64,000 bases of DNA, taken from Patescibacteria group bacterium. GTDB taxonomy: Bacteria; Patescibacteriota; Patescibacteriia; 2-12-FULL-60-25. The position numbers and the translations under genes were made by a program. Below the pieces are notes generated by a model. That model was given only the letters and a program-made list of their open reading frames with translations, was not told the DNA's origin and made no database searches. Where the stretch lies: positions 687,251 to 751,250 of the forward strand of contig JAVHLR010000001.1 in the NCBI GenBank assembly GCA_031082005.1. Reading direction: 5' to 3'. Every line of letters starts with the position of its first letter. Position 1 is the stretch's first letter. Positions 58,477 to 61,444 of this stretch are shown here, in pieces.

Positions 58477-59382
58477 CTATTTCACGCCCTTTGCCGCTGC
58501 ATTCCTGCGCGTCCAGCGATTCCAATCGACCAACAACGGTGAAGCAATGAAAATAGACGAATAAGTACCGGTTACGATACCCACAATCAAGGCTAAAGCG
58601 AAATACTTGATCGACTCCCCACCGAACAGATATACGGCGACCAAAGACAAGACCGTCGTCAAAGAAGTGTTCAGCGAGCGGACCAACGTTTGGTTCACCG
58701 ACTTCTCCACAATTTCCTCAAAAGTTCCTGTCGCCTTTTGTAGATTTTCACGCACGCGATCCAAGACGACGATCGTATCGTTGATCGAGTAACCCATGAT
58801 GGTCAGGATAGCGGCGATGAATGGTGTACCGATTTCTACATTCATGTATTTACCCAGCACCGCGAATAATCCGACCGGCAATATCACGTCATGGAAGGCT
58901 GTCGCCATGACGATAGCACCGTACTTCCAGCTCTTCACGGGCGCCGAGACGCGACGGAAGGTCCAGGCGATGAATGCCATGATGAGAAGGAAGATGATGA
59001 CCAGGGAGTTGATGGATTTATGCCTCAACTCTTCGCCGACTACCGGCCCGATGGCGTTATATTCCAGCTCCGTCGCGCTACCGAAGGTAGATTCCAACGT
59101 CTGCAGTATCTTTTCATGAGTATCTTCGTCTATCGTCTTGAAGCGGAAGATGAGATCCTTTTCCCCTGCCGGCTGTATGGTGATGGCGCTCAAGTCAAAT
59201 ACGCCCAAAGCCTTCTCGGCTTCCGTAGTCTCCGGTCTGTTCTCGAAGCGGACCGATAACATCGTCCCGCCCGTAAAATCGATTCCCTGCTTGAGTCCGA
59301 ACGTGGCCAGTGCGCCTATCGATAAGGCAATGATGACTGCCGAGAAGAGATACCAAATCGCGCGTCGTTTGATGATTGTCAT
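58477..59382 (-). CDS. secF: Protein translocase subunit SecF
   Basis: ATFGLKQGIDFTGGTMLSVRF ... VGEELRHKSINSLVI ... TIMGYSINDTIVVLDRVREN. Confidence 0.96.
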   Translation of the reverse strand: MTIIKRRAIWYLFSAVIIALSIGALATFGLKQGIDFTGGTMLSVRFENRPETTEAEKALGVFDLSAITIQPAGEKDLIFRFKTIDEDTHEKILQTLESTFGSATELEYNAIGPVVGEELRHKSINSLVIIFLLIMAFIAWTFRRVSAPVKSWKYGAIVMATAFHDVILPVGLFAVLGKYMNVEIGTPFIAAILTIMGYSINDTIVVLDRVRENLQKATGTFEEIVEKSVNQTLVRSLNTSLTTVLSLVAVYLFGGESIKYFALALIVGIVTGTYSSIFIASPLLVDWNRWTRRNAAAKGVK

Positions 59383-59386
59383 ATGA

Positions 59387-61444
59387 TTATTTCTTTTCTT
59401 CCGCCTGGCGGGGAATCATGAATAGCCATGGTGCGCGCTTGACCAGCGAACTCGACATGGCCACGCGCATCAACGTCCTAGTCACGACGATGGCGCTGAA
59501 CATGGAGAGCATAACGCCTATCGCCAAAGTCAAAGCGAAACCCTTTATGACCGCTGAAGAGAACCAGTAAAGGACTCCGCAAGATATTAGCGTAGTGAGG
59601 TTACCGTCGCGGATAGAAGTCCAGGCGCGACGAAAAGCTTCTTCCAAAGCCTGTTGCCAAGTCTTACCTAGTTTGAATTCCTCCTTCAACCGCTCGAAAA
59701 TAAGCACATTCGCGTCTACGGCCATACCTATGGACAAGATGAAGCCCGCGATACCGGACAAGGTCAACGTCACAGGCAACAGCTTGAATACAGAGAATGA
59801 AATCCCGACGTACAGTAACAATGCAACAACGGCAATCAACCCCGGCAAGCGATACCAGACGATCATGAAGATAGCGACCAGCAAAAACCCAAGCAGACCG
59901 GCAACCACTGATTTATCCACGGAATCCTGACCCAAAGTCGGTCCAACCGATTGCTGCGCGATCAACTTGATCGGCACCGGCAACGCGCCAGCCTGCAGGC
60001 GTTGGGCCAACAGCTTGGCTTCATCGATCGTGAAGTTACCCGTTATCACCGCTTCGCCGCCCGTGATTTCGCTCTGGACTGTCGGTATAGAGATCGGCTC
60101 GCCGTCCAAGAATATCGCGACCGGCTTGCCCAAATTGCGCTTGGTGATTTCCGCGAAGAGCTGTTTGCCCTCATCGTCGAATTTAAGCGACACCTGTGCA
60201 CTTCCCACGTTTTGGTCGAAATCCAATTGCGCGCGATCAAGCTGCTTGCCAGTAAGCTGCGTGGCCTTCCACTCGCTCTGTGGGGGCAAAATGTCTGACT
60301 CCAGTGTTTTTTTCGCAAAGACAGCCCGCACACGCACGTCGTTGACCGGACGTTCGCCCGTCTTATAGATCAGATGATAACCGAACTGGGTTTCGACGAT
60401 GTTGGAGATTTCACCTGTCTTCAGGCCAAATACCGCTTTCTCGAAATCTTCGACCATCACACCTTTGCCGAACCAGCCTAAATCGCCGCCGCTCTCGTCC
60501 GCTCCCGGCTCTTCCGAGTATTTCTTGGCTGATTCAGCGAAGTTCTCCGGCCTGACCTCCTTCTGGATCTCTTCAAGGCGTTTCTTGGCCTCGTCTTTCG
60601 TCGCGGTCGTCGTGGTCGGAGCGCTCGTTGCGCCTGCGAACTGGATCAAGATGTGACGAGCTTGTATCTCCGGATCAGCCGCCTTTGTCTCCTCGACTTT
60701 TGCCACGATGAATGAGTCCGTGGTCTCGATGACCTTCTCATATACCTGACCAGCGCCTAAATTTTTCGTCGCCTCAAAAATGTCGATATATTGTTGTTTA
60801 TCCTTGATGAATCCCAAATCCCCGCCCAACGCCTTCGATGCGTCATCGCTGGAATGGTCTTTCGCCAATTCTTCGACCACCGACGGGTTAGCCTTGGCCT
60901 TAGCTAAGTCCTCATTCGCCTTGGCTGCCGCCGCTTTATTATCGGCCTCCATCTTAGCTTTTTCTTCATCCGTCAATGAACGCGCCGGCTCACTATTCTG
61001 TTCCTTGAACTCAAGGATGGGAGTTTCACCGATCAACTTGATGGCCTGATTGATGTCGCGCACGCCTGCCAATTCTACCGAGACGCGCCACGAATCACCC
61101 GCACGAGCCGTAGTGATCGAAGGCTCCGAAACACCGATACTGTTCACACGGCGCTCAATCACGTCACGCACGCCGTTCAAGGCAGAGGCGCGCTCGTTGG
61201 CAGTCACCTGCGATACATCAGCCTCGTAATCAAGGTGCGTTCCGCCCTGAAGATCAAGGCCGAGCACGAATCCCTTCTCGATGCGACCAAAATGCGTGCC
61301 TACCCAGTAATTCAGGGTATCGATGACTTTATTAGCCGCCGGCGGATAAGAGATGCCTCCGACGATTAGCGCCAGAAGCGCCAGCAGTATCGCCCGTTTT
61401 TTCAGGGCCGACCGCGAGACGAACGAAGTTGTTGGTTTTGACAT
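59387..61444 (-). CDS. secD: Protein translocase subunit SecD with inserted parvulin (PpiC-type) PPIase region
   Basis: SecD: LGLDLQGGTHLDYEAD, VQSEITGGEAVITGNFTIDEAKLLAQRLQAGALPVPI, GMAVDANVLIFERLKEE; inserted ARHILIQF...FAESAKKYSEEPGADESGGDLGWFGKGVMVEDFEKAVFGLKTGEISNIVETQFGYHLIYKTGERP. Confidence 0.96.
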   Translation of the reverse strand: MSKPTTSFVSRSALKKRAILLALLALIVGGISYPPAANKVIDTLNYWVGTHFGRIEKGFVLGLDLQGGTHLDYEADVSQVTANERASALNGVRDVIERRVNSIGVSEPSITTARAGDSWRVSVELAGVRDINQAIKLIGETPILEFKEQNSEPARSLTDEEKAKMEADNKAAAAKANEDLAKAKANPSVVEELAKDHSSDDASKALGGDLGFIKDKQQYIDIFEATKNLGAGQVYEKVIETTDSFIVAKVEETKAADPEIQARHILIQFAGATSAPTTTTATKDEAKKRLEEIQKEVRPENFAESAKKYSEEPGADESGGDLGWFGKGVMVEDFEKAVFGLKTGEISNIVETQFGYHLIYKTGERPVNDVRVRAVFAKKTLESDILPPQSEWKATQLTGKQLDRAQLDFDQNVGSAQVSLKFDDEGKQLFAEITKRNLGKPVAIFLDGEPISIPTVQSEITGGEAVITGNFTIDEAKLLAQRLQAGALPVPIKLIAQQSVGPTLGQDSVDKSVVAGLLGFLLVAIFMIVWYRLPGLIAVVALLLYVGISFSVFKLLPVTLTLSGIAGFILSIGMAVDANVLIFERLKEEFKLGKTWQQALEEAFRRAWTSIRDGNLTTLISCGVLYWFSSAVIKGFALTLAIGVMLSMFSAIVVTRTLMRVAMSSSLVKRAPWLFMIPRQAEEKK

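Follow-up and report, generated by a model that had tools for sequence, protein, structure and literature searches.

Parvulin units inserted into the P1 region of SecD in Patescibacteria

As established for SecDF of T. thermophilus, the P1 domain of SecD works as a proton-driven arm in contact with preproteins at the outer face. It is presumed to be where SurA and PpiD encounter preproteins, a contact that is transient and hard to study. In a 64,000-nucleotide stretch of a Patescibacteria group bacterium genome (i.e. the window; contig JAVHLR010000001.1, positions 687,251 to 751,250), the P1 base and P1 head encoded by secD are separated by 245 residues as compared to about 13–72 residues in most unfused patescibacterial SecDs. 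The question raised by this locus is what the additional region is, how it came to be there and what it might do at the translocase. The relevant features, in coordinates of the window, are as follows.

59387..61444, minus strand: secD ORF, 685 aa, with the parvulin region inserted (TIGR01129 397.7 bits, cut-off 244.4)
60995..61171, minus strand: N-terminal part of the SecD P1 base (SecD_1st, residues 92-150), with TPILEFKE as its last strand (Pfam; AF2 strand 144-149)
60272..60997, minus strand: insert, about residues 150-391, not in ordinary SecD (Pfam and SecD comparison)
60680..60970, minus strand: Unit 1 (U1, residues 159-255), a decayed parvulin without first strand and without catalytic His
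60347..60673, minus strand: canonical parvulin (strand B1 and unit U2, residues 258-366) with complete active-site residues
60311..60343, minus strand: orphan strand B2, residues 368-378, His lost
59975..60265, minus strand: SecDF P1 head, residues 394-490 (Pfam)
59465..59968, minus strand: SecD RND-type transmembrane domain, residues 493-660 (Pfam SecD_SecF_C; AF2)
58477..59382, minus strand: secF, ordinary, adjacent downstream of secD (ORF, Pfam, NCBIfam)

The gene was identified as secD by matches to SecD_1st, P1_head, SecD_SecF_C and Sec_GG, all above the Pfam cut-offs, and by the adjacent secF; secA lies 1.4 kb from secD and is cut by the window edge. The insert follows the P1-base strand TPILEFKE and precedes the P1 head. 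A Pfam search with the whole SecD matched Rotamase_3 (E 1.9e-36) and Rotamase (E 6.6e-35) over two stretches each. When scanned separately, residues 258–366 scored 92.3 bits against PF00639 and 101.4 bits against PF13616, and residues 153–257 scored 40.7 and 35.4 bits, respectively. As the PF00639 cut-off is 21.7 bits, the degenerate first copy is genuine, its score lying well beyond what chance would give. A first-pass annotation of this DNA had proposed a PpiC-type parvulin region within SecD, preceded by a degenerate copy; both proposals were upheld by the domain search and both regions had been placed correctly within a few bases. Its description of a tandem copy was right as to the presence of two units, whereas the layout begins with a decayed unit that lacks the first strand, followed by a canonical parvulin and then by an orphaned first strand.

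The nearest PDB sequences to the parvulin region were those of PrsA (1zk6, 4wo7, 2jzv) and the SurA parvulins. No SurA_N-type Pfam match was present in the window SecD, whose parvulin is located inside SecD and not in a free-standing chaperone. An AF2 model, a check that the first-pass annotation had also suggested, gave pLDDT values of mostly 77–94 over the insert. Foldseek searches with the model returned SecDF structures first and then SurA (E 1.8e-7) and PpiD-YfgM, the parvulin proteins among the best matches. The global pTM was 0.37, so that the placement of the parvulins relative to the P1 head is not fixed by the model. An assembly or frameshift artefact was ruled out by 33 double forms from the family, all read at this length, and is also countered by the recurrence of the parvulin ORF in 40 of the 41 family genomes. 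The NCBIfam SecDF model NF009585 (993 positions) was considered as a parvulin-containing model and discarded, as it gave no match to the parvulin segments scanned on their own.

The two units differ in their active sites. Residues were compared, by alignment to PrsA, at the positions of the parvulin active-site set (i.e. Pin1 H59, C/D113, L122, M130, F134, T152 and H157). The canonical unit has the full set, as H264, E312, L322, M330, F334, T352 and H357. We take H264, E312 and H357 to be the equivalents of Pin1 H59, the C113 position and H157, respectively; the C113 position is an acid in bacterial parvulins. Among the canonical units of 75 relatives, H157 was kept in 73 and both F134 and G155 in all 75. 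The dN/dS of this unit was 0.04–0.20 for the pairs of relatives with usable dS, showing purifying selection on it. The canonical unit, the second of the two, is predicted to be an active isomerase. Unit 1 of the window SecD has an isoleucine at the H157 position and no first strand of its own, and its Pfam match begins at profile position 10. Similarly, 64 of 69 double forms have no His at the H157 position of Unit 1, and dN was higher in U1 than in the canonical unit in four of five pairs. The active site was lost in some fused SecDs (L079, L081, L088 and L099); in the canonical unit, the strand His and H157 were lost jointly in L079 and L081 and otherwise kept jointly.

The distribution of the fusion was examined at the level of family, class and phylum. 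Forty of the 41 family genomes encode a parvulin only inside SecD, and the one family genome without a parvulin match also has SecD missing from its assembly. No free parvulin was found in any of the 41 family genomes, and the genome of the window itself has no parvulin besides that of SecD. The four genomes of the same genus carry a full-length fused SecD, as do nearly all others of the family. A survey of SecD across Patescibacteria detected a parvulin match in the SecD ORF at this site in at least 48 of 287 sampled genomes, 40 of which were read domain by domain with the other 8 resting on ORF length and kinship. Of these 48 genomes, 22 belong to the same class, from which 23 were sampled, and 26 to eight other families; named relatives with the fusion include Uhrbacteria, Magasanikbacteria, Falkowbacteria, Buchananbacteria, Kerfeldbacteria and Moraniibacteriota. 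Among about 50 named loci sampled outside the phylum (from Chloroflexota, Cyanobacteriota, Bacillota, Pseudomonadota and others), no SecD contained a parvulin. The first-pass annotation had presented the fusion as something built by this organism; it is instead a trait common to the class and to several other patescibacterial lineages. The suggestion that SecD carries the parvulin instead of a separate PrsA or PpiD agrees with the absence of a free parvulin from the family but does not extend to the many fused relatives, including many genomes of the class, that keep a free PrsA-like parvulin beside the fused SecD.

Several variants of the locus were noted in this survey. SecD and SecF form one chain of about 1,010–1,110 aa, with the parvulin insert, in L076-L084. 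About 200 extra residues lie between SecD_1st and the parvulin in L068-L073 (family f88); this stretch had no Pfam match in L070 and is perhaps a far-decayed unit 1. Glu/Pro-rich inserts of 127 and 72 residues, without a parvulin, occupy the same P1 site in L103 (f86) and L113 (f49), respectively. A Lysobacteraceae-labelled contig (L140) encodes a patescibacterial single-insert SecD that falls among patescibacterial sequences, and is probably from a mislabelled genome bin.

In SecD core trees, all fused forms fell within a single region of the phylum that also included some unfused lineages. One SecD without an insert (L033) nested with a double form (support 100/97), pointing to at least one secondary loss, and the fused forms are therefore not expected to make up a strict clade. 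Strict monophyly of the fused SecDs gave p 0.88 on a quick tree, where the constrained tree scored higher, as compared to a borderline p 0.0499 on a careful reduced tree, and hence monophyly of the fused forms is not claimed. The simplest reading of the history is one gain with losses. The losses of active sites (L079, L081, L088 and L099) and of the insert (L033) indicate that the parvulin domain is not strictly required. Judging from L103 and L113, the P1 site seems tolerant of insertions.

The SecDs with a single unit have an unusual order of elements. In these 23 proteins, the unit begins with helix 1 directly after LEFKE and ends with strand 4 (FGYHIIKK); in 20 of the 23, the missing His-bearing first strand (EIKASHILIRT and similar) comes C-terminally, beyond a short linker. 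With this strand moved to the front, 20 of the 23 single forms gained >3 bits against a canonical profile, as compared to one of the 23 when a shuffled strand was moved in the same way. Searches against Pfam with the strand moved to the front extended coverage to position 1 and raised both PF00639 and PF13616 scores in five of five cases. The AF2 model of L136, with block means of pLDDT of 90–96 over residues 151–260, has the order a1 146-170, a2 177-184, a3 188-192, b2 196-201, a4 207-216, b4 232-242 and b1 249-258. Judged by these profiles and this model, the parvulin of the single-insert SecDs is quite probably a natural circular permutant, in which the new ends would lie between beta1 and alpha1 and the old ends would be joined by a hairpin. 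A literature search, thin on subscription papers and hence weak evidence, gave no match for circular permutation of parvulin; if correct, such a natural permutant would be undescribed for the parvulin fold as far as these searches show.

The double form of the window SecD and its kin has the order U1 (decayed), B1 (His strand), U2 (predicted active) and B2 (decayed strand). The His is kept in B1 in 65 of 69 double forms and in B2 in four of 69. In its position and its flanks, B2 corresponds to the C-terminal strand that bears the His in single-insert SecDs, as exemplified by ILIKTKSETDYAPADKW in L092 beside VLIKTKTEVDIIPPQDQW in L102. Retention of the His in B1, its loss from B2 and the flanks that B2 shares with the single forms make it most likely, at the level of sequence, that B1 serves the canonical copy and B2 is a leftover. 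Two SecDs (L088 and L099) have one unit without either His that groups with U1 of doubled relatives (98/83), and so are probably remnants after loss of B1-U2.

The order U1-B1-U2-B2 can be derived either from doubling of a permuted unit or from insertion of a second parvulin into a permuted unit. Under the latter, a canonical parvulin of the free type would have entered the beta4-beta1 loop of the permuted unit with no duplication. This nested insertion has a somewhat less than even chance: U2 joins the free parvulins (95/95), apart from the single-form units, in the larger careful unit tree, and U1 and B2 flank the canonical copy like the two halves of a single form, whereas the unit alignment has only 87–88 columns and an AU test (p 0.22 for nested insertion, p 0.35 for a single origin of all units within SecD) rejects neither. 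Tests of duplication against insertion on quick trees were set aside, as the constrained trees scored far above the free search, a sign that the free trees had been poorly searched. The trees are also in conflict in that the SecD core tree mixes single and double forms and the unit tree groups the single-form units together. For the history as a whole, we lean slightly towards a scenario in which a parvulin became permuted in SecD, a second unit restored a canonical copy and left behind an inactive unit and an orphan strand, and the proton-driven motor came to be coupled directly to prolyl isomerisation of the chain as it emerges. These single, double and reduced forms are informative about the links among permutation, duplication and decay.

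A role at the translocon can be sketched from better known proteins. In E. coli, EM places SurA at SecDF on its periplasmic side, and AlphaFold predicts that both SurA parvulin domains bind the SecDF P1 head (PMC9987972). PpiD contacts the periplasmic part of SecD, although the functional importance of its parvulin domain itself has been questioned (PMC9643414). The insert, a parvulin region built into the P1 region of an otherwise ordinary SecD, is likely to act as a tethered prolyl isomerase or holdase at the translocon exit. A preprotein leaving SecYEG on the outer face would be captured by the proton-driven swing of P1; the tethered parvulin would bind the captured chain and isomerise its prolyl bonds or keep it unfolded. 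The first unit, which has lost its catalytic histidines, may be a peptide-binding or scaffolding module, if kept at all, as is the inactive P1 of SurA. Fusion would make permanent the contact with SecD P1 that is made elsewhere by free SurA and PpiD. We infer catalysis, timing and client binding by the SecD parvulin.

Two other readings of the insert were weighed. The parvulin fold might be a holdase only, i.e. a peptide grip that prevents back-sliding of the preprotein and strengthens the P1 stroke, with isomerisation irrelevant. One of the two units has no catalytic residues in nearly all double forms, L079, L081, L088 and L099 keep the domain after loss of both active sites, and the doubts over the PpiD parvulin domain (PMC9643414) point the same way. 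This reading is nevertheless unlikely, as the near-invariant canonical active site and the paired retention or loss of its histidines are expected under selection for catalysis. The other reading is that the insert is neutral, a passenger without a role in export; this would fit with its loss at least once within the fused group (L033) and with the repeated changes in copy number. We consider this very improbable and rejected it on the basis of retention in 40 of the 41 family genomes and dN/dS values well below 1; the active-site residues are, moreover, nearly invariant across many families.

The SecD parvulin is accompanied by other isomerases. The genome of the window encodes a cyclophilin (L208; 261 aa ORF) with a GAGC lipobox, an exported lipoprotein isomerase, so SecD is not the sole exported isomerase. 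An FKBP-type match in the same genome lies in a 438-aa ORF, the size of which suggests trigger factor. Two relatives (G222 and G333) encode lipoproteins (L085, plus strand, 479 aa, lipobox LTGC; L086, minus strand, 491 aa, lipobox LSGC, respectively) with a SecD-like P1 and two parvulin units, beside a full SecDF-parvulin protein. No RND transmembrane domain was found in L085 or L086, which are, from their domain content, putative detached P1-parvulin chaperones. In G249, a 239-aa lipoprotein with an LAAC lipobox (L071, minus strand) resembles the SecD P1 head alone and is encoded <5 kb from a SecD-parvulin gene.

The SecD-parvulin fusion is real, widespread and well conserved, and its architecture is new although its parts are known. 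No description of a fusion of SecD with a peptidyl-prolyl isomerase domain was found in the literature, in a search that was thin on subscription papers and is weak evidence; a tblastn search of phages gave only SurA/PrsA-like matches, none of them relevant. As Pfam annotation would show both domains, the bare fusion is less novel; less expected are the permutation and the way in which it relates to the double form. The existence of a genetic fusion with copy-number and active-site variants in dozens of lineages makes the hand-over to a parvulin, and the need for isomerisation, directly testable.

Of the known systems, SecDF of T. thermophilus (3AQP) and the structures 5YHF and 5XAN share the P1 base, P1 head and RND-type transmembrane core and are the best Foldseek matches, but have no parvulin between P1 base and head. 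PrsA, the Bacillus foldase, provides the closest solved parvulin sequences (1zk6, 4wo7 and 2jzv), and is a free lipoprotein without SecD parts. PpiD-YfgM is likewise a membrane-tied parvulin at the translocon exit that touches the periplasmic part of SecD (PMC9643414); it differs in being a separate polypeptide with its own transmembrane anchor and chaperone domains and no fusion to SecD. SurA of E. coli resembles the window SecD in having two parvulin units, with P1 inactive and P2 active, and in acting on proteins that leave SecYEG, with its parvulins predicted to lie on the SecDF P1 head (PMC9987972). In contrast to the parvulins inside SecD, those of SurA belong to a free periplasmic protein that has a chaperone N-domain of its own, and they are in the canonical order.
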